A stretch of DNA of 64,000 nt from Vulcanimicrobiota bacterium (GCA_003168375.1 PMSI01000003.1:682001-746000); one strand, 5' to 3'. Counted from the first letter of the stretch, positions 1,256 to 24,688 are shown. Notes: generated from the letters alone by a model not told the origin. Made by a program: numbers and translations.

Positions 1256-4200
1256 ATGAAGTTCTCGCGCACCTATTCCGCCCCCGGCGAACCCTACGCC
1301 GGAATCGATTTCGAGCCGCGAACCTCGCGGATCGCCAACCCCGACGGCAAGGTCGTTTTCGAGCTGAAGGACATCGAGATTCCGACCGGCTGGAGCCAGG
1401 TCGCGACCGATATTCTCGCTCAGAAGTACTTCCGCAAGGCCGGCGTGCCGGATGCGCTCGTACGCGTCCCTGAAGACGGCGTACCCGAGTGGCTGTGGCG
1501 CTCCGAACCCGCGTCCGACGCGAAGTTCGTCGGCGAAACCGACGCCCGCCAAGTGTTCCATCGCCTTGCCGGCTGCTGGACCTACTGGGGCTTCAAGCAC
1601 GACTATTTCGACAACGAGTTCGAAGCGCGCGCCTATTACGACGAGATGTGCGCGATGCTCGCCCGCCAGATCGGTGCCCCTAACTCACCACAATGGTTTA
1701 ACACGGGCCTGCACTGGGCGTATGGGATCTCGGGCCCGGCTCAAGGCCACTACTACATCGACCCCAAGACCACCCAGCTTATGGAGTCCACGTCCGCGTA
1801 CGAGCACCCAGCTCCGCACGCGTGCCTTCCGTATAGAGCGCTTGTCTCGACGCCCGATGGTCCGGTCCCAATCGGCGAGATCGTCGAGCGGAATCTCATT
1901 GGACTAGCGGTGTACGACATGGCTGGTACGACGAACGTGCTCGCCGTGAAGCACAACGGCGTCAAGCGCGTCGTGCGTGTTCGGCTCGCCGGTGATAAGT
2001 CGATCGAAGCGACGGCCGATCACATCGTGCTCGCTCGGCGCTCGCCGGACCACGCGTATCAATGGCTCGGCGCCGGTGATCTCGGCCAAGGCTGGTACGT
2101 CATCGAGCGCAGCGACTTCGTGATGTCGTTCGCCCAACGCACCGCGGCATTCGATGCGCGAGCCGGCTCGATGCGAACCCTTGAAGCGCCGCCAAAGCAC
2201 GACCTGCTCGGGACGGTCGACGTTCGAGTGCTCGGCGTCGACCATGTCGGATTCGAAGATGTCTACGACATCGAGACCGAGTCGCATACATTTCTCACGA
2301 ACGACATTGTCGTTCACAACTGCTTCATTCAGAGCGTGAGCGACGATCTCGTCAATGAGGGCGGCATCATGGACCTGTGGGTTCGTGAAGCGCGCATTTT
2401 TAAGTACGGAAGCGGCACGGGCTCAGACTTCTCCAACATTCGAGGCGAAGGCGAAAAGCTGTCCGGCGGGGGCACCTCATCAGGATTGATGTCGTTCCTG
2501 AAGGTCGGCGATCGCGCTGCCGGTGCGATCAAGTCCGGCGGCACGACGCGGCGCGCTGCAAAGATGTGCGTTCTCAAGCTTGACCACCCTGACATCGAAG
2601 AGTTCATCACGTGGAAGGTGACGGAGGAGCAGAAAGTCTCAGACCTGGTCGCCGGTTCGATCACGTGCGAGAAGCACTTGAACGCGATCATGAAGGCCGC
2701 CACCGACGCGAAAGTGCCGGAATCAGCGCGCCTCGACCCAACGTACAACACCGGGCTGAAGGCCGCGATGCGTGCGGCGTTGGGCGCCGGAATCCCGCCG
2801 GCGAACATCCAGTACGCGCTCGACTACGCCAAGCAAGGCTACAAAGAGCTGAAGATCGAGACGTACGACACGAACTGGGATTCGAAGGCGTACGGAACCG
2901 TTTCCGGCCAGAACTCGAACAACTCGGTCCGCATCCCGAACGAGTTTTTCGCGCGCCTCGACGCCGGACAGACGTGGGATCTCATCCGGCGAACCGACGG
3001 CCGCGTCCATAAGACGTCGCCCGCCGCCGACCTCTGGGAAAAGATCGGTCTCGCTGCATGGCAGTGCGCGGATCCCGGCGTGCAGTACGACACGACGCTC
3101 AACGAGTGGCACACGTGCCCGGTTGATGGGCGTATCAATGCCTCTAATCCGTGCGTCACTGCCGATACAGTGGTCGCGACTGCAGAGGGCGCGAAACTAG
3201 TTCGAGATCTGGTTGGCAAGCCGTTCCGCGCAGTTGTTGACGGTAACGCGTTTGATTCCGATACTCGCGGCTTCTATTCGACTGGAATAAAGCCGGTGTT
3301 CCGACTCGTGGCAAAAGACGAGACAACGCTCCTACGCGTCACCGGAAACCATAAGATCCTGACGATCCAGGACGATGGCTCCGAAGTCTGGCGTACCGTC
3401 GATGAGCTCCAGAGCGGCCAACGGATCGCGCTGCACGACGACGTCGCCGGCGGACATCCGCGCGTCGAAGCGATGCGGAGCCGTAATCTTGTCGGACAAC
3501 GTCCGGGAGTTACCGCAACGACCGCACCATCGAATCGCCGTGCATCGCTGGCGCTGTCGCGGCCGTACGTCGAGCTCGCAGCGAAGATTCCGGACGGCAT
3601 GGAAGAGGTTTTCGATTGCACGATCCCGCGGAAGTCCGCGTTCGATGCAAATGGACTCTATGTCCATAATTGTTCAGAGTACGTTTTCCTAGATGACACG
3701 GCATGCAACCTTGCTTCGCTTAACTTAGCAACCTTTCTCGACGAAGCGGGGCACTTCGACGCGCGCAAGTTCGCCAATGCCTGCCGCATCTGGACGTTCA
3801 CGCTCGAGATCAGCGTCCTTATGGCGCAGTTCCCGAGCGCCGAGATCGCGCGGCGTTCGTACATGTACCGCACGCTCGGCCTTGGCTACGCGAATATGGG
3901 CACGCTGCTGATGCAGCTCGGCCTTCCGTACGATTCCGAGGAAGGCTTCGGATGGTGTGCCGCGATCTCGGCACTGATGACGGGGATGGCGTACAAGACG
4001 TCGGCCGAGATGGCGCGCGAGCTCGGGCCGTTCCCCGGTTACGATCGCAACGCCGAGCACATGGGTCGCGTGCTCCGCAATCACCGTCGCGCTGCGTATG
4101 CGGTGCCGGCGAACGAGTACGAAGAACTCACCGTCACGCCAACCACGCACCAGCCGACGCTCTTCACTCAGGAGACGTGGGCGCTGGCGCGCTCGACGTG

Positions 4201-7123
4201 GGACAACGCGCTCGCGATCGGCGAAGTCGCCGGCTACCGCAACGCGCAAGTCACGTGCATTGCACCGACTGGCTGTCTCGTGGGCAACTCGCTCGTCTCG
4301 ACTGATCGTGGGCTCATGCGCCTGAACCGGCTCGGTAACGCCGACGGCGAAAAATGGCAAGACGTCGCTTTCCGAGTGTTGACCGACGATGGCGAGCAGC
4401 GTGCGACGAAATTCTTCGTCAACGGTGTCGAGCCCACTCGGCGCATCACGACCGCCAGCGGCTACGTGATTCAGGGCACACCAACGCATCGCATCAAGGT
4501 CATCGATTCGGAAACTGGCGACCTCCGCTGGAAGCGCTTCGCTGAGGTTTCATCGGACGATGTTGTGGCGTTGTCGATGGGAACACTCGCTGGCGAACCG
4601 CAACGGGTCAACTTGCCTCCCCTTGGCGAGGAGTACTGGACCGCGGACTTCACGACGCGCGTCCCCCGCAATGTCACGCCTGAGCTGGCCGAGCTCGTCG
4701 GCTACTTTATGGGCGACGGTTCGCTCCATGCCAAGGGACTGCGGTTCTGCATCGCTCGCGATGACCAGGACGTACTTCACCACCTGGCCACTACGATTCG
4801 CACATTGTTCGGCATCGAGCCGATCACAACGTCGAAGGAAGGCTACATCGAGCTCGCTGCAAACTCCGTCTCCCTGACGCTTTGGTGGGAAGCCTGCGGC
4901 TTTGCCAAGCTATCACCCTCCCAGGATCACCGCGGCAAGGGCTACGTTGCCCGCGTGCCGGACGCGATTCTCGCGACGAACGATCCCGCAGTTTATGGCG
5001 CCTTCGTTCGCGGTGTCTTCGAGGCCGATGGAACGGTTACGAACGACGCTGCCTGTTGGTCGACCGTGACCAAGACGTTCAGCGAGGACGTCAAGAGCGT
5101 GATGCTGGCCCTCGGCATCCCGACCTCGAGCAAGGTGACGACGACGGGTTGGGGTCAGAGCGACTGCCATATCTTGCGCGTCCGCACTGCGTCCTATGCG
5201 ACCACGTTCATCTCACAAGTAGGCTTCATCGGCGCTCGCAAGCGCGACGCCGTCAAAGCCTGCGATCTGCCGCAGGGAACCAAAGGCGATCAGGTCTTCC
5301 TCCCCGATCCGCTCATCCGCGAACTCGTCCCGACCAGCAGCGATCTGTACGCCCGCACGCAGCTATATCGGCATCGCCATGATGGTGCCGTTAGCCGAGC
5401 TACCGCGACGGCGCTGCTCGAACGAACGGAACATCCGCGCATCGCCTCGGCGTTGCAGTTCTTCTACGACGCCGTCGCGTCGAACGAAGACGGTGGCGAA
5501 CAGCTTACGTATGACCTGTCGGTTCCGGCGAACGTCACATACATCGCCAACGGTTTCATCTCGCACAATACGATCGGCCTGGTGATGGATTGTGACACGA
5601 CTGGGATCGAGCCGGACTTCGCGTTGGTGAAGTTCAAGAAACTCGCCGGTGGCGGTTACTTCAAGATCGTCAATCAGTCGGTTGAGCCGGCGCTACGCCG
5701 CCTCGGCTACAACAACGAGCAGATCGCGGCTATCGAGACGTTCGCCAAGGGCACGAACACGCTCGAAGGCACGCCGCACATCAACAAGGCGACGCTCAAG
5801 GCGAAGGGCTTCGACGATGAAGCCGTAGCCAAGATCGAATCGCAACTGCTTGGCGCGTTCGAGATCGGCTTCGTCTTCAACCAGCACGTGCTGGGCGAGG
5901 AGTTCTGCCGCGAAAAACTTGGCATGACGACCGAACAGCTCGCCGACTGGAACCACTCGATCCTGAAAGACACGCTGGGCTTCAGCCAATCGCAGATCGA
6001 GGAAGCCTCCGACGTGATCTGCGGCCGGATGACGCTCGAAGGCGCACCGTTCCTCAAGGACGAGCACCTGCCGGTGTTCGACTGCGCGACACCGTGCGGC
6101 AAGCACGGCGCGCGGTTCATCCGCCCGCTGGCGCACGTCGACATGATGGCTGCCGCACAGCCCTTCGTTTCCGGAGCAATCTCCAAAACAATAAATCTCC
6201 CACAAACAGCGACGATCGCGGACGTCAAAGAAGCGTATCGCTACTCGTGGGAAAAGATGATCAAGGCGGTCGCGCTGTACCGCGACGGCTCGAAGCTCTC
6301 GCAGCCGCTTGCGGCGAGCTACGATGTCGGCGCCGGCGACGACGAGCTCGACCAGCCGCAGGTCGCCTACGAAGGCCCGATCCAAATTGCGGAACGCGTC
6401 GTGTACCGGTACATCGCGAAGCGCCGGCGTATGCCGGACCGCCGCGGCGGCTACACGCAAAAGGCCGTCATCGGAGGACACAAAGTCTATCTCCGTACGG
6501 GCGAGTACGACGACAAGTCGATCGGCGAGATCTTCATCGACATGCACAAGGAGGGCGCCGCCTTCCGCAGCCTGATGAACAACTTCGCGATCGCGGTGTC
6601 GCTCGGGCTGCAGCACGGTGTCCCGCTCGAGGAATACGTGGACGCCTTCACGTTCACGCGCTTCGAGCCGAACGGCCCCGTCGTCGGGCACGCGAACATC
6701 AAGATGGCGACGTCGATCCTCGACTACATCTTCCGTGAGCTCGCCGTGAGCTATCTCGGCCGCTACGACCTCGCGCAGGTGCAGCCGTCGCAGGCACTCG
6801 ACGCAATGGGGCCTGAACCGGAGTACGTCGGCGAGGAAGACAGCGGCGAGGTCCACATCGTCGCGACCGCCCTGCCGCCGAAGGCCGGATCACCGAGCGC
6901 TCCCGCTCTTCCCACGCGCATACCGGAACCGGTCGGTGCGGTTGCATCGGCACCCGTCGCCGGCGGCGCCGCGAAAGGCCAGATCGTCGCCGCGAAGACG
7001 CGCGAGTCAATCGCGAAGGGCTACAGCGGCGACGCTTGTACGCAATGCGGTGGCTTCACGCTCGTCCGCAACGGCACGTGCCTGAAGTGCGACAGCTGCG
7101 GCACCACGAGCGGCTGTTCGTAA
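1256..7123 (+). CDS. nrdJ: Adenosylcobalamin-dependent (class II) ribonucleoside-diphosphate reductase carrying three inteins
   Basis: The 1955-residue ORF reduces to about 1184 residues after removing three inteins (residues 190-355, 633-805, 1007-1438). The mature enzyme would make deoxyribonucleotides using a B12-generated thiyl radical. The extein keeps the first redox Cys in PHAC-FIQSV, the NPC-SE radical-cysteine loop (Asn, Cys, Glu), the [12 protein letters not shown] partner Cys and the APTG-TIG phosphate loop. Its C-terminus is a zinc-ribbon-like Cys-rich tail with CTQC, CDSC and TSGCS. ATG 1256 follows an AAGAGGA ribosome-binding site. The gene stands alone behind NrdR-type boxes and ends in a strong hairpin terminator. 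Confidence 0.97.
1823..2320 (+). other. Mini-intein 1 of NrdJ (166 aa, no endonuclease)
   Basis: Starts with Cys ([13 protein letters not shown], block A), has a block B TADH motif, and ends in VVHN just before an extein Cys. That +1 Cys lies in the CFIQSV motif, the equivalent of the redox-active Cys225 of E. coli NrdA. At 166 residues there is room only for the Hint splicing domain, and no LAGLIDADG motif is visible. All residues needed for self-splicing (Cys1, block B His, terminal His-Asn, Cys+1) are present, so it is probably active. Confidence 0.92.
3152..3670 (+). other. Mini-intein 2 of NrdJ (173 aa, no endonuclease)
   Basis: Begins [13 protein letters not shown], has block B TGNH and ends GLYVHN directly before the Cys of NPC-SE. 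That Cys corresponds to the thiyl-radical Cys439 of E. coli NrdA, so the residue that carries catalysis also serves as the +1 splicing nucleophile. The 173-residue length indicates a Hint-only mini-intein. Third-position A/T codons look somewhat more common than in the surrounding extein, by eye. Confidence 0.92.
4274..5569 (+). other. Full-length intein 3 of NrdJ with LAGLIDADG homing endonuclease (432 aa)
   Basis: Inserted between Gly and Thr of the APTG-TIG loop that binds substrate phosphate. It starts with Cys ([13 protein letters not shown]), has block B TPTH, and ends FISHN before Thr+1. The central part carries two LAGLIDADG-type dodecapeptides, [11 protein letters not shown] and [12 protein letters not shown], each with the acidic residue expected in the metal site, so the homing endonuclease looks intact. 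Unlike the two mini-inteins it should still be able to spread into intein-free alleles. Confidence 0.93.
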
Positions 7124-7188
7124 AACGTTCCGGTGTAACATAATACGTTACAGCGTCGGAGCCGCCCAGCGCTCTGCCGGTACGCGCA

Positions 7189-7215
7189 AAGAGAGGCCAT
7201 AACCTGGCCTCTCTT
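7189..7215 (+). terminator. Hairpin terminator of nrdJ
   Basis: Perfect 11-bp inverted repeat AAGAGAGGCCA / TGGCCTCTCTT around a five-base loop, 65 bp after the nrdJ stop. It is followed by CTCGTGTTCTT rather than a clean U-tract. It separates the housekeeping gene from the recombinase unit. Confidence 0.75.
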
Positions 7216-7271
7216 CTCGTGTTCTTACGCGCAGAAGGGGTTGTTACAATGTCTCATTAAACGTTACCCTC

Positions 7272-8384
7272 GTGGATGACGGTAAACACGATGACAAGCA
7301 CGTGACGGCCCACGATCTCCTGCCGTCCGATGTCGGGCTATTGCACCCGGAACAACATGTGTTTGAGGCGATGATCGAAGGATGGGGACGCCAGCAGCGT
7401 AGCCGTCAGCTAAAGCAGTCAGTGATCGAATCGAGAATCGCGCTCATTCGCGCCTTCGGACGCCACGCGGAACGATATCCCTGGCAATGGAATCCGGAAG
7501 ATCTCGAGTTCTACACCTCGCGTTGCTCAGAAGCCGGAAATCGATACTCAACGATTCGCGGAAAGCAAAATTCTATCAGGCAATTTTGCGAGTACATAAC
7601 GGATCCGCGGTACTCTTGGGTAACCCTCTGCGTCGACCGGTTCGGCTCCGCTCCCCAGCAGATTTGCCATGAATGGAATACGGTCGGCCACAACTCTGAC
7701 TATGAAGGCGACCCTGCGCGGCGTCCCCTTACAGCCTCGGAACTTGAAACACTCTTCGCCTGCGCTGATGATCGTGTGGATAAGATCCGCCGGCGAAGGC
7801 GTAAAGGCAGCCTCGCAGCATTCCGATCGAGCGCCTTCTACAAGGTCGTTTATTCTTTCGGCCTTCGCAACAGGGAGGCTTGCTTCATCGAGCTCGCTGA
7901 TTTTCTCCCGAACCCAGACCATAGCAAATATCGCTCGTTCGGCTCGTTACATGTTCGCTACGGTAAATCCGCTCATGGCGGACCGCCTCGACGTCGACTT
8001 GTCTATCTTCTACCGGAACTCGACTGGATCATCGACGTGCTTGCGCAGTATTTCTCCGAAATCCGACCCATCTTCAACCCCGGGCGCCTTCCGTATGTGT
8101 TCCTTACCGATCGCCACGGGCGCTTGAATCCGAAGCGCGTCGCCGAAGACTTTGCAGATCTTGTGCAAGAGGCGAACCTGCCGACGGCACTCGATCTACA
8201 TTGCTTGCGACATACGTACGCAACGCATATGGCTGAATGGGGATACGACGAGTATTTTCGACAGAAGCAGCTCGGACACGCATACGGTTCCTCGACGGGA
8301 ATCTACACTCATCTCGGCAGCGACTTCAAACGAAGCGCCATCCGCCTGGCACTCGCACGTGTCTACGGGGACTTCAAGCAATGA
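7272..8384 (+). CDS. Tyrosine-type site-specific recombinase/integrase
   Basis: A 370-residue protein with an N-terminal SAM-like core-binding region and a C-terminal catalytic domain. Visible catalytic residues are Arg199 (GLRNRE), Lys232, His310 and Arg313 (HCLRHTYATH), His336 (QLGH) and the nucleophile Tyr345 (IYTHLG). This full set indicates an active phage-integrase-fold recombinase that cuts and rejoins DNA through a 3'-phosphotyrosine. The start is a GTG at 7272. Its stop overlaps the next gene's start (ATGA), which makes it the first member of a coupled three-gene recombinase unit. Confidence 0.93.
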   Translation: MDDGKHDDKHVTAHDLLPSDVGLLHPEQHVFEAMIEGWGRQQRSRQLKQSVIESRIALIRAFGRHAERYPWQWNPEDLEFYTSRCSEAGNRYSTIRGKQNSIRQFCEYITDPRYSWVTLCVDRFGSAPQQICHEWNTVGHNSDYEGDPARRPLTASELETLFACADDRVDKIRRRRRKGSLAAFRSSAFYKVVYSFGLRNREACFIELADFLPNPDHSKYRSFGSLHVRYGKSAHGGPPRRRLVYLLPELDWIIDVLAQYFSEIRPIFNPGRLPYVFLTDRHGRLNPKRVAEDFADLVQEANLPTALDLHCLRHTYATHMAEWGYDEYFRQKQLGHAYGSSTGIYTHLGSDFKRSAIRLALARVYGDFKQ

Positions 8385-8701
8385 CGAAAAAGATGGCGGC
8401 TCGGTGGCTCCTTCGCATCCGCCTGGCGGAGCGCGGCATCTTTAATACGACCGACCTGATGCCACATCTAGAAGAGCGAGGTGTTAAATTATCCCGGATG
8501 CAGGTCTATCGCCTCGTCACCGAGGAGCCGATCCGCGTCTCAATGGACCACATCGCGGCGCTCTGCGACATTTTATCGTGCACGCCGTCGGACCTCATCG
8601 AGGTTGTCCCGGAAGCACGGCCGACACGGCGCGCCGCCAACGAGCGCGGGACCCTTCCAAGTGGTATCAAGCCGGTTCGCGCGCGCCTTCATAAGCGATA
8701 G
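8381..8701 (+). CDS. Xre/Cro-type helix-turn-helix regulator
   Basis: A 106-residue protein from ATG 8381, overlapping the integrase stop by 4 nt. Residues from LSRMQVYRLVTEE onward match an HTH_26/Xre-type DNA-binding domain, including the characteristic ALCDILSCTPSDLIEV. The remainder is a basic Arg/Lys-rich tail. Sandwiched between two recombinase-like genes, it probably regulates the unit or acts as a directionality factor; the latter is inference. Confidence 0.85.
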   Translation: MTKKMAARWLLRIRLAERGIFNTTDLMPHLEERGVKLSRMQVYRLVTEEPIRVSMDHIAALCDILSCTPSDLIEVVPEARPTRRAANERGTLPSGIKPVRARLHKR

Positions 8702-8706
8702 CGGAA

Positions 8707-10893
8707 GTGACGAAGCGAGCTGGCAACGAAAGATTACGCGCGCTCCTCGACTTCGTCGCAGGCCGCAGGATTGACCTTTCGCCTCGTTCGATCGAAAGCG
8801 CTATCCGAGCCGCAGTGCCAGCAGAATGGGCTAAGACCAGAGCACTGAACTATTTGTGCTCTCATCCCTGTGCTTTAGAGGACGGCTCCCCCGGACCAAG
8901 ATCGATCTCACGCCTGGTAAATGAATTGCTTGCACGCGGCGCAGTACGCGTCCAACCCCCACGTTGTCCGAAATGCGCGGGACCGAAGCCGCTAGAGTAT
9001 CGAAATAGCGGCCAGTACATATGTAGGTCTTGCTATACAAACAAAGTCAACGTAGCGAGCTGCGGCCAATGCCAGCGCGTCCGGCCAATTGGTGCGCGCC
9101 GTGGGTCCGATGTCATCTGCACTTCCTGCATACATCAAGATCCCTCGAAGCGCGAAATCTGTTCGCGGTGCCAGACTCTAGCGCCCGTCTCGGGCCGAGA
9201 TGCCGGTGCGTCCATCTGTCAACTTTGCCTCGATCGTCCGGAGCGGCGCTGCGATGACTGTGGCGAGATGCGCGTGATTCACTCAAACAAGGGCGGTCAA
9301 AGTGTCTGCAAGTGGTGTTACCGTAAACGAAGGAACGGTATCACAAATCTACGGACACGCCTACCTAAGCGTCCAATGCGCCGGCGGCAGTGCTTCAGCT
9401 GTGGCGACTATCGGCTTTGCGTGGACTACACCACAGAAAAGCCCCTCTGCGTACGGTGTGCCGAGCCACTCATTCGCACGTGCGTGATTTGTCTACGTGA
9501 GCGGCGCACGCATGCCGTATGGCCGATAGGCCCGGTCTGCGTAAGTTGCTGGGAAGGTCATGAGGGCCGGTGCGAGACGTGCGGGGGTGCTGACCTACGA
9601 GTCGTCGTGTTGAGAGGGGCGCTCCACTGCCTTAGATGTGTAGGAAGCGGCGGCATCAGTAATTGCTTACGTTGCGGTCGCGCTGGTCGCCCATTTCGAG
9701 ATAAGATATGCGCACCGTGCTGCACGGAAATCGAGTTCGATCACATAGGGCTAACGCGCAACAGCACGCTTTACCCGCTGCGAACCCTCCTGGTGTCTCA
9801 ACACGGTGCGAGGGGCCTTCTTATGTGGCTCCGCAGGAGTCCGGCCGTTCCTCTGATAGCTGGATTCGCTGCCCGCAATGAGGTGCCGAGTCACGACTTT
9901 CTCGACTCAGTGGACCATCACAAAGCCGCGCTGATCCGCAGCGCGCTCATAGCAGCGAAGCTGCTCCCGGAACGCGTCGAGTCGGTCGGCCGCGTCGAAC
10001 GATGGCTACAACAGTATCTCCGGTCCGCCGACCAAGACCATCTGCCGCTTCTTGTTGCCTTCGGGAAATGGCACGTCCTCCGGCGCCTAAGGTCCCTCTG
10101 TGAACATCGCGGTGAAACGGCGGGAGCTGCAGCCGGTGCTCGAGCGCGCATCCGCGCTGCCGGGCACTTCCTTCGATGGCTAGCAACAGTCGGTCGTACC
10201 CTGTCGACATGTCGACAGGAAGACCTTGATCAGTGGCTCGTATCGTCGAAGACGACTGGTTACGACGTTAAGTACTTCGTTCGATGGGCTACGACTCGAC
10301 GGCGCTGTCAGCAGCTCGTGATGCCCAATGCGAAAGGGGCCGCGCCGACCGCGCCTAGCGATGAAAGCGGCCGCTGGGCAATCGTCGAGCGCCTCTTGAC
10401 CGACGAGAAAATCGATCGAACAGACCGCATTGCTGGCCTCTTTCTGTTGCTCTATGCACAGCCGATGACGCGCATTCGGCGTCTTAGTGACGCCGACGTG
10501 ACCGAGAGCGAGGGGGAAGTTCTCGTTCGCTTTGGTAGCGATTGGACGCCACTCTGCCCGGTGCTGGACGACCTCGTCCGTTCACTGATTCAAGATTACC
10601 GTTTAGTTCCTCGTAGCCGAACGACGGCTGGCGCCACACTCTTGTTTCCAAGTCCCGTACAATACGGCCGGCCGGTGGGTGCGACCGCCCTGTCAAGAAA
10701 GCTTCGGCGACTCGGAATCAATGTCGTCGCTGATCGGCTCAGTATCGAGACCGAGCTTCTGCGACGGATAAAGATTCCGCGCATCATAGCTGATATGATT
10801 GGCATCCATATCGGAACCGCCGTACGAAAGGCCGTGGAGCTGAATGTTTCGGCGTCCCAATATGCCGTCAAAAATGTCCGCCACGGCACATGA
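8707..10893 (+). CDS. Large recombinase-like protein with eight tandem zinc ribbons
   Basis: A 728-residue protein starting at GTG 8707, six bases after the Xre gene. After about 85 residues come eight consecutive CxxC...CxxC pairs (roughly residues 87-340), for example CPKC/CRSC, CGQC/CTSC and CLRC/CAPC. The C-terminal half resembles a tyrosine-recombinase scaffold. It has a SAM-like segment, a segment LYAQPMTRIRRL where the catalytic Arg box is expected, and a terminal LADLLGI-type helix (IADMIGIHIGTAVRKAVEL). I see no clear HxxR or nucleophile Tyr, so it may be a catalytically degenerate partner of the upstream integrase. Similar int-xre-Cys-rich trios occur in actinobacteria. Confidence 0.8.
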   Translation: MTKRAGNERLRALLDFVAGRRIDLSPRSIESAIRAAVPAEWAKTRALNYLCSHPCALEDGSPGPRSISRLVNELLARGAVRVQPPRCPKCAGPKPLEYRNSGQYICRSCYTNKVNVASCGQCQRVRPIGARRGSDVICTSCIHQDPSKREICSRCQTLAPVSGRDAGASICQLCLDRPERRCDDCGEMRVIHSNKGGQSVCKWCYRKRRNGITNLRTRLPKRPMRRRQCFSCGDYRLCVDYTTEKPLCVRCAEPLIRTCVICLRERRTHAVWPIGPVCVSCWEGHEGRCETCGGADLRVVVLRGALHCLRCVGSGGISNCLRCGRAGRPFRDKICAPCCTEIEFDHIGLTRNSTLYPLRTLLVSQHGARGLLMWLRRSPAVPLIAGFAARNEVPSHDFLDSVDHHKAALIRSALIAAKLLPERVESVGRVERWLQQYLRSADQDHLPLLVAFGKWHVLRRLRSLCEHRGETAGAAAGARARIRAAGHFLRWLATVGRTLSTCRQEDLDQWLVSSKTTGYDVKYFVRWATTRRRCQQLVMPNAKGAAPTAPSDESGRWAIVERLLTDEKIDRTDRIAGLFLLLYAQPMTRIRRLSDADVTESEGEVLVRFGSDWTPLCPVLDDLVRSLIQDYRLVPRSRTTAGATLLFPSPVQYGRPVGATALSRKLRRLGINVVADRLSIETELLRRIKIPRIIADMIGIHIGTAVRKAVELNVSASQYAVKNVRHGT

Positions 10894-11084
10894 GGTGATC
10901 GTGTTAAATCTGGCCGCGACGTCGACCGGCGCGTCGTCCTCAAAGCTCGTTTCGTACGAAATACGTACTGCTCTAAGATTGCGCAGAGCGAGAGGCCTTC
11001 CGCTCCGGCTCTCCGGCGTCGGGCCTCGGCCGAGACCTCCGCGACCATCGTGATCGTAGTCCAGAATTGTGCGGACTTGAGATC

Positions 11085-11810
11085 CTACTTCGTAAGCCAT
11101 TCCCCGTACGCTTCGATATCGATCATCGGGACCGTGCCGCTGAATTGCAGCTGCGAGATGAGTTTGAAAAGGAACGCCGTCGCAGGCTTGCTTTCATCGA
11201 CGAACGTGAAGCCGGACGTCTGCTGATCGTAGAAGAAGTGACCATGCGAGGCGACGCATCCGATGTCGAGACGCCCTTCAGAAACATCGGCTCGCAGCGC
11301 CCTTTCGAACGGCGTCCCAAGGGCAGGCCTCCAGTCGCTCTCGAAGGTCAAGAGCCCTCCGAGAATCGGGATCAACGGCTTAGCTGGGTATACACCCTTC
11401 GCGTATGGGATCGGTAGACTCGTGCGATACAGCCGACGCACGCTGGCGACTTTCTGTTGCGCGTAGTCGACGAGGTTCGCGTCGGCGGTCTGCTTCGCTT
11501 CGAACACAGCATAAACGCTCTCTGCTGGGACGATCGTCTGTCCCTCGTAGTCGAAGATGAACGGCGAGTACTGTCGGTCGAAGATCACCACGTCGATTTG
11601 TTGGCTGAAATTGCCTTTGCTGTCAACGACGTGCGCCTTAGCCGCCTGGTAACGTTTGGGCAGATACTTGTCGAACATGCTGATCCAGACGTTCTCGCTG
11701 GCGTCGCCCTTGGTACCGGGATGATTAAACGTCTTCCGCACCGTGGCGAGTCGCTGCTGGATGTCATCGTGCAGCGACGCGAGCAGTTGCGACAAAGACC
11801 ATTCAGACAT
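11085..11810 (-). CDS. DUF6602-like putative PD-(D/E)XK nuclease, candidate CBASS effector
   Basis: A 241-residue protein, last gene of the leftward CBASS operon, 30 nt after the CD-NTase stop and preceded by a GAGG site. An acidic GDASEN helix, QIDVVIFDR and AVFEAKQT supply the E, D and ExK pattern of restriction-endonuclease-like folds. The region resembles DUF6602 proteins. No NucC, SAVED, phospholipase or membrane effector is present in the operon, so this is the best candidate for the nucleotide-activated effector. No dedicated ligand-binding domain can be identified, and nuclease activity is inferred from the motif only. Confidence 0.7.
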   Translation of the reverse strand: MSEWSLSQLLASLHDDIQQRLATVRKTFNHPGTKGDASENVWISMFDKYLPKRYQAAKAHVVDSKGNFSQQIDVVIFDRQYSPFIFDYEGQTIVPAESVYAVFEAKQTADANLVDYAQQKVASVRRLYRTSLPIPYAKGVYPAKPLIPILGGLLTFESDWRPALGTPFERALRADVSEGRLDIGCVASHGHFFYDQQTSGFTFVDESKPATAFLFKLISQLQFSGTVPMIDIEAYGEWLTK

Positions 11811-11840
11811 CGAGAACCTCAGGATCGACTAGTGTAGCGA

Positions 11841-12740
11841 TCACGACAACGGAAATTTGGGGCCGAACATCTCGCGCCAAGCCTTGAGCGCTTCGCCGTT
11901 GCGCCCTCTTCGCACATGGTCGACCGCCAGCGTCGCCTCGCGCTCCGCGCCGCGCAGCAGTTCGCGCGCCCGCGTCTTCCGTTCGGCGTCCATGCCATCG
12001 CTGATCGCGGGGCCGAGGCCGGCCGGATCGGGCCACTCATCGAATATGCGGTCCGCAAGCGTCGCGAAGAACGCTTGCATTTCCCGATCGAAACTTCCGC
12101 CCCAGCCGCCGTGCAGGCATTGAAGCGCCATGACCTCGATGAGGAATGACGGCTTTACCGGCTTCTCGCCGTGCTTGGAGTTGTTGTTCCAGTACTTCAC
12201 CATGCGCACGAGGCCTTTCCACTCGCTGGAGTAAGCCTGGTGCGCGGCAGTGGCCTTGGCCGCGTGCGTCTGCGGATTCGTCTCGATCCATTTCGCCAGA
12301 TCGGCGTCTGGGATTTCGTAGTCTCCGTCCTTGTCGAACGCAGGGACCACGTCGACGCTGATGATGCGATAGTCCGTGTTGTCATCCACGTCCGCCTCGA
12401 CACCGAAATCGACGTTGATAGAGCGGTTTTGTTTCTTCGCGTTGTTCTTGCCGTATTTAGCGACGAGCGCGCTGTGGAAGTCGCCCAGCACCCGCGAGGG
12501 ATCCTCCGAACGATAGTGGTCCTCGGGCGACTTCAGCACGAAGAAGATGTCGACGTCCTTCAACGGTTTCGTCTTGGTCCACCTCGCGTAAGACCCGGTG
12601 AGGAAGCTGCGGTCGATCTTGAACTGGGTGTCCAGGTAGTCTCGCACTTCTTGTTGTCGCGCAGACGCATTCTCCTGTTCACGTTCGTTCAGTTCAAGAC
12701 GACTCTTAAACTTACGAAATGCTTCATCGATCGTCAGCAT
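11841..12740 (-). CDS. cdn: CBASS cyclic-oligonucleotide synthase (CD-NTase)
   Basis: ATG 12740 follows GGAGAA and overlaps the HORMA stop (ATGA); the frame is open further upstream, but that part is shadow. The 299-residue protein has the nucleotidyltransferase signature Gly49-Ser50, then Asp62-Val-Asp64 and Asp130 in SVDVVPAF. An all-helical SMODS-type C-terminal half follows. On phage infection such enzymes make cyclic di- or trinucleotides that switch on an effector. Product identity is unknown. Adjacent HORMA and TRIP13 genes place it in type III CBASS, where the HORMA protein activates the synthase. Confidence 0.93.
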
Positions 12741-13240
12741 CAGGTTCTCCGCAGATATGAAGTTCTCGCGCCAAGGCCGCTGTGTTCGACCGTAGTGCCG
12801 AGGCTCTGGCGAACCATGCCGGCCGTAGAACGGTAACTCCCAGTGCCCCACCCGTCGACGTTCGGTCGTCCCGGCTTGGTGTCCAACAGCAGACAGTAGC
12901 GCGCCTCGCTCGGCGCAACGCCAGCTTTCCGGATTGCATACTTCAGCTGCTCTGTGTCGGTCCAAAAGCTTCCGTCGCCTTCGGTCCAGCCGTATACGAT
13001 CTCGATGTCCCACCTCGTGATGAGCGCGCCCGTTTTCGGATTGTATATTTCAAGCGCGATGCCTCTGAGGTCACCGGAGTTCAACCACGTGCGCAAGCCA
13101 TTCATGTAGACCTGCCATTCGCCAACGAACTCGGCCGGGTTTAGCCCGCTCAACCGGATGATGTCCTTCAGGCTCTTGAGGATGTTGTCCGCCACGTAAG
13201 TGACGGAGTGAGTGTACGAGTAGACTGCGACGCTGGTCAC
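12740..13240 (-). CDS. cap7: Bacterial HORMA-domain protein of type III CBASS (Cap7-like)
   Basis: A 166-residue protein with a GTG start at 13240 that overlaps the previous gene's stop. The N-terminus ([17 protein letters not shown]) and the following strands ([20 protein letters not shown]) match bacterial HORMA proteins. In characterised systems these bind a peptide or phage-derived protein, close around it, and activate the CD-NTase. The TRIP13 ATPase disassembles the complex. Position between TRIP13 and the synthase supports the call. Confidence 0.85.
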
Positions 13241-13710
13241 GGTGCGAGAAAGCCCTTCGGGTCAATCGTCAACGATCCGGTTGCAGCAGCAGTCGCGTCG
13301 TCGGCCGCCACGTTGACTCCTAACTCTCGCGCAGTTATGCGACTACTACGCTGTGCAAGCGCGCTCTGCACCCAGGACAGGTCGTCCCTCTCGCATGGGA
13401 GCGAGATTCGCCAGTCGCCTTTGAGGGCGTCGAATCCCAACACGTCCTCGTTTGCGTCCGCGCCGTCCACAGCGTCGTCGGCATATACGCAATAGAGACG
13501 TGTGCGCGGCCCGTCGCACGTCACGACGATGGGCGCATCTTTCGGTGCTTCATCGGCGATGACGCTCGCGGCGACGCCGGCGACGCCGAGAAGTTCCGCG
13601 CGCACGTCGCCCGTCCGGTTCTCTGTGAGAAGATCGACGATAGCGCTCCAGGTCTCGGCGGCGTCGCGATAGGGGGAACTTCGGAACGTACGGCTCGCGA
13701 CGGTGCTCAC
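13237..13710 (-). CDS. Unrecognised 157-aa protein of the CBASS operon
   Basis: GTG start at 13710, overlapping the TRIP13 stop (GTGA), and its own stop overlaps the HORMA start, so it is translationally locked into the operon. The sequence is alpha/beta with no catalytic motif that I recognise. It ends in a disordered-looking Ala/Thr-rich stretch and a [10 protein letters not shown] tail. It could be a diverged second HORMA protein or a carrier of the closure peptide captured by HORMA. Both ideas rest on position alone. Confidence 0.8.
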
Positions 13711-14666
13711 GCCTTCCTCGTTCGTAGGGCGCGGTTGGCCTTGGTCGCTCTAGCCGCTTCGAGCAGATCGGCCGACGTCACCGCGCCGGGATTCATCGCC
13801 GTCGCGGGACTGCTCGCGAGCGCGTTTGCGACCATCTTACGAATGGCACGACCGTCGAGCCCAACGCATTCGTTGGCACATTGCACAAGCTGTGGCGAGT
13901 TCGTGATCTTACCGATCGCCGGGTAGATACGCGCGAGGCCGATCAAGCAATCCTCGAGAATCTTGGCGCACGCATTGCGGTCTGGCAACGGGATCTGGAG
14001 TACTAGGTCACAACGGGACGTGAACGCGGTGTCGACCGCTTCCGGAAAGTTGCTGGTCGCGACGAAGAGCAACTGCGTGTAACGCTCGGCAAGAGAGTCG
14101 AGCTGCACGAGGACCGCGTCCGTGGCGCGGTGCACGTCCACCGGATTCGCCTCGAAACTCGCCTTCGAGCGATCGACAGCAAGCGTCTCGATCTCGTCGA
14201 GGAGCACGATCGTAGGCCCGCCAGACGCCGCTTCTGCGATCGACTGCGAGAACAGCTCCGAAACGGCGCGCTGCGTTTTACCCATCGCGGAGCTTGTGAG
14301 TATATGCGGCTCGACCTCCAGCAAACGGAAGCCGCCCTCCGCGAACGATTCCGCGGTTCGATGTGCGAGCCCACGCGCGAGCGACGTCTTGCCGGTTCCG
14401 GGCGGACCAACGAGTAGGATGACGCCGTGAAGCGGAAGCACCGTCCGCGGCACCTTGCCCCGAACCGTGAAGTTCAGCACGGCCTGCGATAGCAGCTGTG
14501 TCTTGAGCTTTTCCTCGACGATGATCGACTGCCACAGCGCGCCCAGCTTTGGGTCGGGCAGGCTGCGGCTCCGGTTGATGCCCTTGGGTAGGTTGATCTC
14601 ATCGCCTTGGCGAGCGTGCGCGGTTCTCATTCCGCGCGCAATGTTCGATCTGGCGGCCTCGAACAC
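13707..14666 (-). CDS. cap6: TRIP13/Pch2-like AAA+ ATPase of type III CBASS (Cap6-like)
   Basis: A 319-residue AAA+ protein with Walker A GPPGTGKT (residues 87-94), Walker B IVLLDE (153-158), a sensor-1 Asn in VATSNFPE and a downstream Arg in FTSRCD. These match the TRIP13/Pch2 remodelers that unfold HORMA proteins and switch CBASS signalling off. It is the first gene of a five-gene leftward operon in which every junction but the last overlaps. The ATG at 14666 is used; an in-frame ATG at 14630 is an alternative. Confidence 0.9.
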   Translation of the reverse strand: MFEAARSNIARGMRTAHARQGDEINLPKGINRSRSLPDPKLGALWQSIIVEEKLKTQLLSQAVLNFTVRGKVPRTVLPLHGVILLVGPPGTGKTSLARGLAHRTAESFAEGGFRLLEVEPHILTSSAMGKTQRAVSELFSQSIAEAASGGPTIVLLDEIETLAVDRSKASFEANPVDVHRATDAVLVQLDSLAERYTQLLFVATSNFPEAVDTAFTSRCDLVLQIPLPDRNACAKILEDCLIGLARIYPAIGKITNSPQLVQCANECVGLDGRAIRKMVANALASSPATAMNPGAVTSADLLEAARATKANRALRTRKA

Positions 14667-15153
14667 CTGTTCGAGGCGCGACCATCAAGCGGGCTGGGAC
14701 GGACCCGCGAAACGCCGCTCCGGTGCTCTCCGTGGCGACCGGCGGCAAACCCCTTGCGCGGTCGTCGCGAGAGCCTCTGCCTTTCTATGCAGGACAAGCC
14801 ACCGAGTTCGGGTACAAAATATTAGCGGGGCACTGCGGGAATCTCGCCCGGGAAACAATGGGGACGCATGGAGTTCGGGGTTCCTCCTTGATGTTGGGCG
14901 AGCGTCGCGGGCGCTGCGACGTCCCCGCCGTCCCGCGGACGGCGCCGATCCGAGCCCGACCGGAGGGCCATAACATGCCCGTCTTGGCCGTCTCACATAC
15001 AGCCGGCTTTGTGCGAACGCGGGCACGGCTGGGACTCGTATGTGCGTCCGCTGACCGGCACAAATCGCTCCAATGGGCGGTTGGCGACGATACTATCCAG
15101 TCTCACAAGGGCCGTGGACATCGTACGCGCCCAGTTACGTGGGGACGACGCGT
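14667..15153. other. Intergenic region between divergent CBASS and Qat operons
   Basis: About 490 bp separates the leftward CBASS operon from the rightward Qat operon and should hold both promoters. ORFs run through it on both strands, but none looks like protein. I see no strong hairpin or recognisable -10/-35 pair. The first 81 bp depend on which qatA start is used. Confidence 0.5.
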
Positions 15154-17100
15154 GTGACCCTTTGGGCAGACAACGAGACAACGACGGACCTCCTCGGCTT
15201 CACGCCTTGGGTCAAAACCGTTGCGGAACTCGTGACGTCATCCGACATGCTTCCGGTGACGGTCGGAATCTTCAGCGACTGGGGAGGCGGCAAGACGAGC
15301 CTCATGACCATGTTGCATGACGACCTCGTCAAGCTCGATGGGGTTGTCGTCGCCGAGTTTCAGCCGTGGCTGCACCGAAGCTACGATGACGTACGCGGCG
15401 CTCTTATGGTCGCGATCGTCGACGCGCTAAATGCGAAGGTTCCGCTATGGGAGAAAGCCGGCAAGGCAGTCGGTAGCGAAGCAAAGGCGGAGCTCAAGAA
15501 GTTCGCGCGACGCATCGATTGGCTGCGCCTGATGAAGTTTGGCTTCAAAGCAGGCGGAGCGCTAGCAACAGTACTTCATGCACCACCCGTCGGGTTTGCA
15601 CTGGGCGCAGGTGCGCTGAGCGATCTGCCACACCTGCTTACGGACGCAACCGATGAGAAACCGAATGGCGACGGCGAAAGCGCCCCGGCGACGGCCGACG
15701 CCATCAAACCGAAAGAACGCGAGCTCGCCATCCAGCAAGCGGCGCCGCCGGTCGAGCGCGCAATTGCGGAGTTTCGTGAGGAGTTCAAGCATCTGCTCAA
15801 ACATCTGGGCATCGAGTCGCTCACCGTGCTCGTCGACGACCTCGACCGATGTTCGCCCGCTACGATTCTCGACACACTAGAGGCAATCAAGCTCTTCTTC
15901 GCGGTGCCACGCACGGCATTTGTAATTGGCGCAGATCAGCGCATTATCAAGCACGCTCTCGAAACGCGCTACCCGGAGACAGGACCCCTCGCGACAACTT
16001 TGGGCCGAGAATACCTCGAAAAGATCATACAAATTCCCGTGCAGATCCCGCCCCTGACGCCAGCGGAACTTGAGGCATACATGTACCTCCTCATCGTTGA
16101 GCGGCACCTTGGGCGCGGCGGCGATAAGGCAACATTCTCGACGTTCCGCGAGGCTGCGCTCGCGCGCATGGCCGGCAGCACCGGCGCAGTCGCGATAAAC
16201 TACGGCGTGATCAAGGAGCTACTCACCGATTTGCCCGAGACGCTCCAAGCCGATCTCGCACTTGTAGCGCAGGTTGCGCCAGTGCTTGCTCCGCAACTCA
16301 AAGGCAATCCACGCCAAGCCAAGCGCTTCCTCAACCTCGTGTTCCTTCGAGAGCGTCTCGCGAAGGCGATCGGCTTGACCGTCGACATGTCGGTTCTGGC
16401 GAAGTTGGCATCGCTCGAATACTTCGACGAGGAGGCCTTCTCTCAAATAGCAACCTGGAACGCCGAGGCGCCCGGTGCGTCGCCGCAAATTTGTGCGCTG
16501 GAAGCGTTCGCTAGTGGCGCTACTCTGCAAGCGGGCAAGGATCAGGACGCGCTGGAACGTTTCGTCGCGCCCGCGCGCGTCAGGGGATGGCTGAAATCAG
16601 CGCCGCTCATCGGGTCTGTGGACATCGGACCGTACGTCACTTTCGCGCGAGAGAAAGTTCGAGGCTTCGGCGCCCGCGAGCGGACGCTGCCGCCAGCAAT
16701 CCAAGATATTCTCGTTGGACTGCTGGACGACACCGCCGCCATCGCAAGCTCCGCTATGGAACGCGCAAAGGCGCTCGATACCGAGGATCAAGAATCGTTG
16801 TTCGCAACGTTGCTAGCGCGCCTTCCGTATGGAGAGGTCACGAACGCGCATGTCGATGCCGCCCTCGGGTTAATTGAGGTGGCGCCGTCACGCGCGCCTG
16901 GCTTCGCAGCAGCGCTCGGCGCCGTTGCACCGGATAACGTACCCGCCGATCTGCCGATGACAATTCGCATGCGCGTCCCGGCGTCAGTATCAACGTTCAT
17001 CCCGATCTTCGAAACTTGGGCGCGACTCGCCGAGCCCGCGATGCTCGCGAAGGTAGCGCAGCGCGCCATAAACGCGAGCACCGATAAAAAGAGAAGCTAA
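15154..17100 (+). CDS. qatA: QatA: KAP-family P-loop NTPase
   Basis: About 648 residues from GTG 15154, which follows GGGGA and begins VTLWADNETTTDLLGF, the usual N-terminus of the family. The frame is open back to ATG 15073, but that 27-residue extension looks non-coding. Walker A is DWGGGKTS near residue 51 and Walker B is LVDDLDR, both typical of KAP NTPases, with hydrophobic stretches between them. QatA is the NTPase of the QatABCD anti-phage system. qatB starts two bases after the stop. Confidence 0.92.
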   Translation: MTLWADNETTTDLLGFTPWVKTVAELVTSSDMLPVTVGIFSDWGGGKTSLMTMLHDDLVKLDGVVVAEFQPWLHRSYDDVRGALMVAIVDALNAKVPLWEKAGKAVGSEAKAELKKFARRIDWLRLMKFGFKAGGALATVLHAPPVGFALGAGALSDLPHLLTDATDEKPNGDGESAPATADAIKPKERELAIQQAAPPVERAIAEFREEFKHLLKHLGIESLTVLVDDLDRCSPATILDTLEAIKLFFAVPRTAFVIGADQRIIKHALETRYPETGPLATTLGREYLEKIIQIPVQIPPLTPAELEAYMYLLIVERHLGRGGDKATFSTFREAALARMAGSTGAVAINYGVIKELLTDLPETLQADLALVAQVAPVLAPQLKGNPRQAKRFLNLVFLRERLAKAIGLTVDMSVLAKLASLEYFDEEAFSQIATWNAEAPGASPQICALEAFASGATLQAGKDQDALERFVAPARVRGWLKSAPLIGSVDIGPYVTFAREKVRGFGARERTLPPAIQDILVGLLDDTAAIASSAMERAKALDTEDQESLFATLLARLPYGEVTNAHVDAALGLIEVAPSRAPGFAAALGAVAPDNVPADLPMTIRMRVPASVSTFIPIFETWARLAEPAMLAKVAQRAINASTDKKRS

Positions 17101-17102
17101 CA

Positions 17103-17816
17103 TTGGGCACATCTAGTTCCTACTCGTCACCGACGACACTCCCGTGGAAACGCGCCAAGAACGCCACCTCCCGCTTCGCATCTGGCGGCGGCGAAGCCGG
17201 CGGTCGGAGCCCCGCCCTGCCCATCGCACGCTTCGTCCAGGCGCTCGGCGGCGCTCGCGAAGCCGCACGTGAGGCGCCGGTCGGGCGAGCGGTTGCAAAC
17301 CGCCTTCTTGCATTTGGGCAAGCAACCGCACAGCGCGGGATCGATGCGGCGCTGCGCGAGTTCGGCCTTGAAGACGCCGTCGGTCTCGCGGCCGACGAGG
17401 CGCTCCAACGCATCGTCGACACACTGGCGGCCGGCGCAAACACTCTCGATGAAACCGCGGCGCGCGAGGCACTTGTCGACGTTATACGGGAGTTGCTCGA
17501 GGACTCCGACGACGTCGAGGATGCGTTCGGGGACCTTGACGTAGTCGGTGCTTTGGACCTGCTGCGCCGCTTCATCGCAGCCTACATCTTCCGACGTTTC
17601 GCGAAGGCGCTAGGAGATCGCTTGCGCGCGCACGCAGAAAGTGCTCCGGCGGCGCGAAGGCGTGAGGAAGAGATGAAACGCTACATCGCCGCCGAGGTTG
17701 TGATCGCTTTCGAAGACATCGACGTCGAAACGCTCGATTGGCGAAATGATACGGAACGCATCATTGAACGATGCATGCGCGAAGCGTTCCGCACACTCGG
17801 AGACGAAGATGCCTAA
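17103..17816 (+). CDS. qatB: QatB defence protein
   Basis: A 237-residue protein starting at TTG 17103 with MGTSSSYSSP, the characteristic QatB N-terminus. The rest is helical and Ala/Arg/Glu-rich with no enzymatic motif. Its function in Qat defence is not known. It overlaps the qatC start by 8 nt. Confidence 0.88.
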   Translation: MGTSSSYSSPTTLPWKRAKNATSRFASGGGEAGGRSPALPIARFVQALGGAREAAREAPVGRAVANRLLAFGQATAQRGIDAALREFGLEDAVGLAADEALQRIVDTLAAGANTLDETAAREALVDVIRELLEDSDDVEDAFGDLDVVGALDLLRRFIAAYIFRRFAKALGDRLRAHAESAPAARRREEEMKRYIAAEVVIAFEDIDVETLDWRNDTERIIERCMREAFRTLGDEDA

Positions 17817-19164
17817 ACGCAACGTGTACGTTCGAACGTCGCCGGCGGACACCGTCCCACCTTCTCTATCGGATGCCCTCGTCGTGAGCGATCTGGCCGA
17901 AGGCTCGACATTGTCGCACGATATCCATCGAATAACCGACGTGGTTGGCGAACCACTGCCCGCGGCGCGCGATCTCTTCACGTTTGCCGGCGCAGTATAT
18001 GTCGCCGATAAGAAGACACCGCGTAAATCCACTGCGGACGCATGGACGCGCGACTTCGAGGTCCGGATGCCTGTCGCCGACGTGGAGCGATGGGAAAGTG
18101 CTCGACCCGCGCTTGAAAGGTCACTGAGCTTCCTCACAGGCGATACTTGGAGTCTGCGCTTTCGGCGCGGAATTCGACGACCCGTGCGCGCGCGGAAGGC
18201 CGGCGCGTCTTATAATGCAGTGCACCTCTTTTCTGGAGGTTTGGATTCGCTCATTGGGGCGATTGACGCTCTTGCGGGCGATGAGCGGCTATTGCTTCTC
18301 GGCCATCACGATTCGGGCCTGACGGAGCCTCCACAGAAGATCCTATCTTCGGCGCTCGACGACGAATATGAGAATCTCAGCACGTTCGTGCCAGTGCGGG
18401 CTCGAGGGAAGACCAGTGGTTTATCGGCGTTTCCCTTGCCGGCAGGTTCAGAGAACACTACGCGCAGTCGATCGTTAGTCTTCATCGCAATGGGCCTCGT
18501 GGGGGCATCCGCGCTGGGCGCAAATGTAACACTGCGTATACCAGAAAATGGCCTCATCGCCCTCAACGTACCGCTTGTGCCCGAACGGAGCGGGAGTTGC
18601 AGCACACGGACGACGCATCCCCACTTCCTCGCCCAGCTACGGCAAGCGCTAGACGTGCTCGGCATCAGAAACGAGCTCGACAATCCGTATCTCTTGTTGA
18701 CCAAAGGCGAAATGCTTGAGCATTGCCGGAACCCGGAACTCATCCGTAAAATCGGCTATGCCAGCGTGTCATGCTCGCGCTCCGAACAAGCTCGATGGGA
18801 CGGCAAGAAGAACTTTCCCAAGAACTGCGGTTACTGCTATCCGTGCATCATCCGACGAGCGGCATTTCATGCAATCAACGAGGATCGCTTTCGAGAGCGC
18901 ACCGGACTTGAACGGTATCGCATTGACGTTTGCAAGAAGCCTGACTTCGTGCACGAGCCAGTTACTGGACGTGATCTTCGCGCGGTATTGGCCGCCGTCG
19001 GCGCCGGCCCTAAGCGACTTAACCCTTTGCTTTCGGGGCCGGTACCCGCGGACGTTACGATGGAACAACTCTCGCACCTGCATGCGCGTGGCATCCAGGA
19101 GCTGCGCGACTTCTTCGAACAAAAGGGATCGCGTGGGGTGAAGTCCTACGCAGGGATCGCCTGA
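17809..19164 (+). CDS. qatC: QatC: QueC-like PP-loop enzyme
   Basis: A 451-residue protein from ATG 17809. The PP-loop ATP-binding motif is SGGLDS (residues 142-147), and a QueC-type zinc site is visible as a lone upstream Cys plus CGYCYPC. QueC makes preQ0 from carboxydeazaguanine with ATP and ammonia. QatC proteins are longer homologues used in anti-phage defence and probably modify another target. It overlaps qatB and is followed by the convergent qatD. Confidence 0.92.
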   Translation: MPKRNVYVRTSPADTVPPSLSDALVVSDLAEGSTLSHDIHRITDVVGEPLPAARDLFTFAGAVYVADKKTPRKSTADAWTRDFEVRMPVADVERWESARPALERSLSFLTGDTWSLRFRRGIRRPVRARKAGASYNAVHLFSGGLDSLIGAIDALAGDERLLLLGHHDSGLTEPPQKILSSALDDEYENLSTFVPVRARGKTSGLSAFPLPAGSENTTRSRSLVFIAMGLVGASALGANVTLRIPENGLIALNVPLVPERSGSCSTRTTHPHFLAQLRQALDVLGIRNELDNPYLLLTKGEMLEHCRNPELIRKIGYASVSCSRSEQARWDGKKNFPKNCGYCYPCIIRRAAFHAINEDRFRERTGLERYRIDVCKKPDFVHEPVTGRDLRAVLAAVGAGPKRLNPLLSGPVPADVTMEQLSHLHARGIQELRDFFEQKGSRGVKSYAGIA

Positions 19165-19357
19165 GGCCTTCCGCATCCACACGCTCAGTGGCGAAGACCC
19201 GTCGGATCTCAGCCGGGACCAAGGGCGAGACCGCAATCACAGTGCTGCCCGTTTCAGAGTTTGACGGTGGCCAGCAAATGCGATCGGACACCTCGCAGAT
19301 TCACCCCCGCTCAAGATCGTGATTTCCCTCTCTTTACGAAGCAACGTCGCCTTCAAC

Positions 19358-20122: not shown

Positions 20123-20332
20123 CGGTGTCTCCGGCGGCGTACCACGACTTCTGAGATTTGATTGCCGTCCTCAGTTGCGCAGACCTGCGGGCGTGACTTC
20201 CTTCTCGACCGGCTCACAGATTCTCGGCGGGCCGCGACCTTGTCGACGCGACGATTCTGGCCGTCCCTACTGCGGAACCACTTCGAGCCCGTCGTCGACC
20301 GCCGTCTCGTCGGTCACCCGGGGATGTAGCGG

Positions 20333-20360
20333 CTAGGATATGTACCGGTTACCAGTAAAG
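20333..20360 (+). repeat. Dispersed intergenic repeat, copy 1 (degenerate left part)
   Basis: AGGATAT-N7-TTACCAGTAA with spacer GTACCGG. The left GGAATA box is degraded to GGGATG about 15 bp upstream. It lies 163 bp before the ATPase gene at 20496. Confidence 0.75.
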
Positions 20361-20399
20361 CTAGGGACAAGGCAAACGCTGCCACCGTGTCACCGAATC

Positions 20400-20447
20400 A
20401 GTTCGCAAGGCGTGGAGTGCCGACGAGCACATCACACCTTGCGAACT
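20400..20447. repeat. 48-nt near-perfect hairpin before the ATPase gene
   Basis: Two 21-nt arms (20400-20420 and 20427-20447) flank the loop CGACGA. Eighteen of 21 positions are Watson-Crick pairs. The other three are one G-T wobble and two mismatches. The outer 11 bp (AGTTCGCAAGG / CCTTGCGAACT) are perfect. It ends 48 bp before the ATPase start, so it could be a leader RNA structure, an operator, or a cruciform/recombination site. Confidence 0.85.
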
Positions 20448-20495
20448 CTGAGAGAGTACTAAGTCGGTAGCAGTGCCTTTCCGAGGTATTCCAAA

Positions 20496-24635: not shown

Positions 24636-24688
24636 GCGGACCCGCGGCGTCAAGGGTTTCCTTGGCCATAGGAGCAAGGGCGCGTTGA

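Follow-up and report, generated by a model that had tools for sequence, protein, structure and literature searches.

A tyrosine recombinase, a small HTH protein and a zinc-ribbon dead recombinase as the probable recombination module of site-specific mobile elements in Actinomycetota and Eremiobacterota

At the edge of a group of defence genes in a 64,000-nt stretch of the genome of Vulcanimicrobiota bacterium (GCA_003168375.1, PMSI01000003.1:682001-746000; hereafter the window, which denotes the whole stretch and to which all coordinates refer) lie three closely spaced plus-strand genes, here termed the trio. The first, int (7272-8384), encodes a catalytically complete tyrosine recombinase of 370 aa (Pfam Phage_integrase PF00589, 2.1e-16), in which R199, K232, H310, R313, H336 and Y345 are unchanged across six diverse aligned members. 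It shares an ATGA overlap with the gene for a small Cro/C1-type helix-turn-helix (HTH) protein (8381-8701; HTH_26, 1.2e-16), and the gene for a 728-aa zinc-ribbon protein (8707-10893) begins 5 nt past the HTH stop codon. A type III cyclic oligonucleotide-based antiphage signalling system (CBASS) and a Qat system follow directly downstream. An earlier note on this DNA had described an active-looking tyrosine recombinase and an Xre regulator, forming with the third gene an overlapping unit at the edge of a defence island; recombinase, regulator and position are all borne out, whereas the overlap extends only to int and the HTH gene, the zinc-ribbon gene being merely adjacent. As judged from sequence comparison, the trio probably serves for recombination in a family of small, site-specific mobile elements that possess exact ends and targets; in the window, modules are stacked behind nrdJ.

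The zinc-ribbon protein comprises a helical N-terminal domain, eight C4 ribbons (residues 87-338) and a dead tyrosine-recombinase half (residues 442-728). Sixteen CxxC knuckles at positions 87 to 335 make up the eight ribbons, and across the protein family the number of knuckles varies from 6 to 20. An hhalign profile search of the C-terminal half against int detected no similarity, and the fold was recognized through structure instead. In an AlphaFold (AF2) model built from 40 homologues (mean pLDDT 84.9), the top Foldseek and VIA matches to residues 442-728 were tyrosine recombinases without exception (Foldseek E 2e-5), including, in VIA, XerH (Z 12.9 across 271 residues), an integron integrase (Z 12.4) and Tn1549 Int (Z 11.8), with Cre and lambda Int also matched. 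The column of the catalytic Tyr is occupied by Trp in 37 of the 40 homologues and by Lys or His in the remainder, never by Tyr, and the HxxR motif has lost its His but retains its Arg in 39 of 40 (columns assigned by eye). The count of eight zinc ribbons and the degenerate recombinase scaffold predicted in the earlier note thus both hold, and the comparison it proposed with XerD/Int returned that fold. The targeting role that it suggested for this protein is plausible, with the ribbons hypothesized to read the target. GinC and Tfp are degenerate recombinases within the gene sets needed for recombination of GInt and strand-biased circularizing (SE) elements, respectively (PMC5385486, PMC10214605), and by analogy with them the zinc-ribbon protein would be a structural partner in recombination.

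Exact insertion points of trio elements are evident in Actinomycetota. On Rhodococcus plasmids, an integrase gene (A) and a gene designated D flank the trio, which occupies a single exact point; ∼23 other plasmids, in which A and D are joined without it, represent empty sites. A 3767-bp element is 99% identical among four plasmids, compared with 84-92% (mostly 84-88%) in the flanking 0.9-1 kb, one pair of the four having a common left flank; in a fifth copy (L013) the element is 91% identical vs 76 and 64% for its flanks. A, which encodes a tyrosine recombinase, and D, of unknown family, constitute a ∼2.3-kb pair with a sharp left border that recurs in many Rhodococcus plasmid neighbourhoods (L014-L017, L004, L009, and L011-L013), and the pair may be a mobile unit in its own right that hosts the trio. 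Streptomyces sp. SM1 has two identical copies of a 4605-bp element, each inserted after the catalytic-Tyr codon of a different integrase gene, with left ends that begin approximately one codon past that Tyr (..DTTMGYY/NPRELHQTG.. and ..STTAIYM/NPRELHQTG.., where the slash marks the boundary). To the right of one of these copies lies the tail displaced from the integrase that it interrupts, an integrase itself belonging to another trio, and the insertion is therefore nested. Direct repeats of at least 10 bp between the SM1 element ends were sought and none was found, and hence there are no long repeats or target duplication there. Elements of this Tyr-codon type, which form a Streptomyces clade, provide the interrupted integrase with a substitute C-terminal tail, and when the flanks of two-ended loci are joined, the integrase frame and native tail are restored in many cases. 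A strict Tyr-box rule held at 26 boundaries, against a background of 0.56% among random positions; L066, counted among the 26, is a false regular-expression match at which the boundary is the integrase stop codon.

A left-end motif, as a rule 95-170 bp ahead of int, was recognized by a matrix derived from the mapped ends in 79 of 92 trio loci; the left-end sequence of the largest group is AACCCTCGGGAATTGCATCAGAYG. The motif is confined to element ends in both searched genomes that contain it, and a right-end motif was found in 47 of the 87 trio loci searched. Near the int start of L056 (9830-9960), L055, L063, and L110 there is a further copy of a left-end palindrome, TTGCATCNGATGCAA, and this arrangement at left end and int start suggests autoregulation. 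The survey of trio flanks called for in the earlier note therefore placed trios at the borders of discrete elements, at their left end, given the left-end motif and the empty sites in Rhodococcus and Streptomyces, and the target-site duplications for which it had asked were not seen at trio elements. As to its proposal that the trio integrates the island, this is the best reading for the defence-bearing module, but the element is not defence-specific. From the anatomy of the elements we strongly infer that integration is effected by the trio.

The target in the window is nrdJ (1256-7123, plus strand), an essential DNA-synthesis gene that encodes an intein-containing B12-dependent ribonucleotide reductase (NCBIfam equivalog matches were obtained for the homologues at L052, L056, and L076). 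The element starts directly past the nrdJ stop codon at four loci in two phyla, namely those of the window and of G001, a member of the same genus (L050 and L052), and Streptomyces L056 and L076. The left end in the window (7124-7152, plus strand) is AACGTTCCGGTGTAACATAATACGTTACA, and a related motif is located behind nrdJ in four other members of the genus. The native nrdJ terminator of L056 comes after the right end, GGAATAAGTGCCCTCCGCCAGTA, and the joined flanks are ∼84.5% identical, through the junction, to uninterrupted nrdJ ends of other Streptomyces. A terminator-like hairpin, seen directly in L056 and in the window, lies near the left end of the element, so that nrdJ retains a terminator. 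Several intein-like insertions split the 1955-aa product of the window nrdJ, and the target gene is thus itself host to other homing elements. In G004 (L042), G007 (L043), and G008 (L044), a left-end motif, CCGGATTTNCATC..ACGTTACA, is found directly behind nrdJ without a trio, and in G008 a type III-like CBASS is also encoded behind nrdJ; these trio-less left ends are compatible with recurrent gain and loss at a single site.

Scanning of GTDB genomes with an int alignment yielded 80 loci, nearly all from Actinomycetota, with one other from Eremiobacterota. The gene for the zinc-ribbon protein is almost always located downstream of int where the contig extends, and nearly all of the loci carry the complete trio, a conservation that rules out a chance arrangement. 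A tblastn search of plasmids with the zinc-ribbon protein produced 233 records, of which those inspected exhibit the int-HTH-zinc-ribbon order; all three genes are present on many actinobacterial plasmids. Phage records contained no match, and a phage origin was rejected on this basis together with a single match in viral contigs and no PHROG for either the HTH or the zinc-ribbon protein. The elements are ∼3.7-8 kb in Actinomycetota, compared with a trio-bearing module of 13 kb in the window genome, a member of the Eremiobacterota. Since actinobacterial copies carry no cargo or one or two miscellaneous genes, often next to the right end, defence is not specific to the element. Trio loci in tandem or nested arrangement were noted at L114, L064, L084, L121, and L111, and in L111 one right end abuts the next left end. 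In a tree of int sequences, target classes cluster by clade (none of 200 shuffles gave a value as low), with two changes for the Tyr-codon group and one for the Rhodococcus group. Targeting of nrdJ occurs at separate places in the tree, indicating that it was gained or lost more than once; the two Eremiobacterota sequences join in a grouping that the program flags as a possible long-branch artefact. The literature searched yielded no published account of the trio or of elements that home to an integrase's catalytic-Tyr codon, and the trio elements apparently represent an undescribed family.

Downstream of the trio, the right-end motif GGAATATN7TTACCAGTA occurs in six plus-strand copies (at 20335, 27164, 31024, 32279, 34076, and 36615), compared with 0.00 expected in shuffles of the window, and no further copies exist in the 4.43-Mb genome. 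The full right end consists of two 16-bp direct repeats starting GGAATA, followed by ACCAGTA, as in the second copy (27148-27186; GGAATACACCCTGGTT GGAATATGCCGGCCTT ACCAGTA), although the first and last copies have a degenerate first 16-bp repeat. The signal for the second repeat peaks at exactly -16 and is shared with the Rhodococcus elements and with the nrdJ elements of Streptomyces, so that paired 16-bp repeats occur at right ends in both phyla. In full, the remaining copies, all plus strand, extend over 20319-20357 (two mismatches), 31008-31046 (one mismatch), 32263-32301, 34060-34098, and 36599-36637, the last three, like the second, without mismatches. Within the genus, arrays of right ends are restricted to the trio-bearing genomes G000 (six copies) and G001 (three copies, with at most one mismatch), others having at most isolated matches with two mismatches.

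Each right end closes a module. Module 1 (7124-20357) comprises the trio, the type III CBASS (11085-14666; NucC, cyclase, two HORMA proteins, and TRIP13) and QatABCD (15073-20122), both detected using PADLOC (1e-21 to 1e-147). The defence-like module 2 (20358-27186) encodes an SMC-like ATPase, a TCAD9/APH protein, an unknown protein and an Mrr/OLD-TOPRIM protein; its genes (20496-26790) resemble an uncharacterised defence operon. Module 3 (27187-31046) carries genes for a DUF4238 protein and two unknowns, while modules 4 (31047-32301) and 5 (32302-34098) each contain a minus-strand gene, for a zinc alcohol dehydrogenase and an alpha/beta hydrolase, respectively. Module 6 (34099-36637), which ends at the last right end of the array, has three open reading frames, parts of which are also present behind nrdJ in G004 and G007. 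SMC-ATPase/HerA-type defence-like genes lie downstream of the trio of G001, a sister species. The window and G001 share module 4, right end included, at 97.9% identity, compared with ∼84% for nrdJ, in neighbourhoods that differ, which points to movement of this single module. The window contains a further alcohol dehydrogenase gene (43675-44838), ∼90% identical to that of module 4, together with a degraded motif at 44720 that resembles a right end and is likewise present in G004; module 4 may be derived from this resident locus.

Int probably cuts and joins the element ends and the target, strand exchange being assigned to it from what is known of the tyrosine recombinase family. The most likely binding sites of the HTH protein are the operator-like palindromes that several loci carry both at the left end and in the int promoter region. 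The zinc-ribbon protein most likely fills recombinase positions in the synapse, where its ribbons would read end or target DNA and so determine direction or target choice. The target gene is kept whole by a C-terminus or terminator supplied by the element, and successive insertions behind nrdJ would generate a module stack, each module closed by the same right end and the trio-proximal one bearing CBASS and Qat. The catalytic roles, the order of these events and the movement of trio-less modules, whether in trans or in cis, are likewise putative.

Several points weigh against this scheme. The support for mobility is comparative throughout, and the roles of the zinc-ribbon and HTH proteins are ones that we infer. 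The left end in the window scores only -3.2 bits with a matrix that is actinobacterial, a clear left end is absent from most of the trio-less modules, and ∼35-39 trio loci fall outside the assigned target classes. An exact empty site for the window could not be reconstructed from the genomes of the genus, as the region is rearranged there. It could be argued that the right end is a single recombination site and that the trio-less modules are true cassettes gathered behind nrdJ in an integron-like system. Six right ends in the same orientation bounding intergenic modules, the apparent movement of module 4 by itself and the one or two genes often found beside the right end of actinobacterial elements are in keeping with this, yet each actinobacterial element has both ends and its own trio, five of the six right ends in the window fold no better than shuffled sequences and lack attC-like structure, and the same picture would arise if whole elements accreted in tandem and later lost their trios (compare actinomycete integrative and conjugative elements, AICEs; PMC9513070). 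A cassette system is on balance rather unlikely. It is possible, if doubtful, that the zinc-ribbon protein serves as a repressor or excision regulator instead of a targeting subunit, since phi3T SroF, an integrase-fold phage repressor, is among its structural matches and its gene shares an operon with the HTH gene. Against such a role, it is conserved as strictly as int and is retained in minimal 3.77-kb elements, and degenerate recombinases belong to the gene sets needed for GInt and SE recombination (PMC5385486, PMC10214605).

Two further explanations can be considered. Spread through homologous recombination of the flanks, with the trio as a passenger, might be favoured by the repetitive nature of the Rhodococcus A and D genes across plasmids, but it is very improbable given that identity jumps exactly at both element ends, that the same termini occur in unrelated targets and phyla, that one insertion is nested within another trio and that independent insertions at identical nucleotides in unrelated backgrounds have largely been seen. 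Alternatively, the repeated motif in the window could serve defence operons as a regulatory sequence or terminator rather than being a recombination site, and its copies are indeed intergenic and near gene ends; the same two-repeat structure is, however, the mapped right end of actinobacterial elements, and arrays within the genus are restricted to trio-bearing genomes, making this a highly implausible account. A site-specific element recombined by its own trio is the reading retained here.

Several known systems resemble the trio element. The GInt islands, typified by Tn6571 (ginABCD), are target-specific, are headed by a recombinase operon that includes the degenerate recombinase GinC and a small protein, and carry defence cargo (PMC5385486, PMC10121019). 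Some insert at the 3' end of the ribonucleotide reductase alpha gene (in P. aeruginosa; PMC5385486) and alter C-termini (PMC5385486, PMC10121019), apparently an independent use of a similar target gene. GInts have three integrases plus GinD, whereas in the trio a single active recombinase is accompanied by an HTH_26 protein and by a dead recombinase bearing eight ribbons; membership was rejected, as ginABCD with its three integrases is not present. SE elements (intA-tfp-intB-srap) encode Tfp, which has a recombinase fold without catalytic residues, and are target-specific with short imperfect termini; they differ in having two active recombinases and Srap, in their occurrence in Gammaproteobacteria and in that no zinc ribbons are mentioned in the description consulted (PMC10214605). 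The trio, with its single active recombinase and without the intA-tfp-intB-srap order, is excluded from the SEs by gene content. Tn554 (TnpABC) and RIT elements are also multi-protein tyrosine-recombinase transposons, the former with a target preference, but they possess two or three active recombinases and no zinc-ribbon partner has been described for them. The single active recombinase of the trio contrasts with TnpA and TnpB (plus TnpC) of Tn554, and the three active recombinases and 34-bp terminal inverted repeats of RIT elements are lacking; both assignments were rejected. The Gamma-Mobile-Trio (GmtYZX; Mahata et al. 2024, cited in PMC12715929) likewise combines a tyrosine recombinase trio with defensive cargo, and was rejected because int scores 17.1 bits against a cut-off of 340 for GmtY (NF040693). 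Integrons, too, have stacked modules that all end in a common site, but the sites of the trio element are direct repeats without attC folding. An integron integrase identity was rejected (37.1 bits vs a cut-off of 265 for IntI, TIGR02249), as were attC single-strand hairpins at the right ends, where z-scores lie above 0 at five of six sites. The trio element thus works like GInt, SE and Tn554 yet fails the gene-content definitions of each.

A more far-reaching proposal is that the elements form a two-phylum class in which a live recombinase and a zinc-ribbon dead recombinase recognise conserved coding motifs, among them the catalytic-Tyr codon in integrases of other elements, and which in Eremiobacterota serves as an integron-like collector of defence modules behind nrdJ; taken as a whole, this must be regarded as speculative and improbable. 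The trio elements are abundant in Actinomycetota and Eremiobacterota, and their exact ends, targets and gene content are now open to test. An element that inserts just past the active-site codon in the integrase of another element, and at once provides a replacement tail, is a hyperparasite carried along on other mobile DNA, for example plasmids, and a dead recombinase with fused zinc ribbons may be a modular target reader. As the trio machinery heads a complete CBASS and Qat system in the window, it offers a concrete mechanism for the growth of some defence islands.

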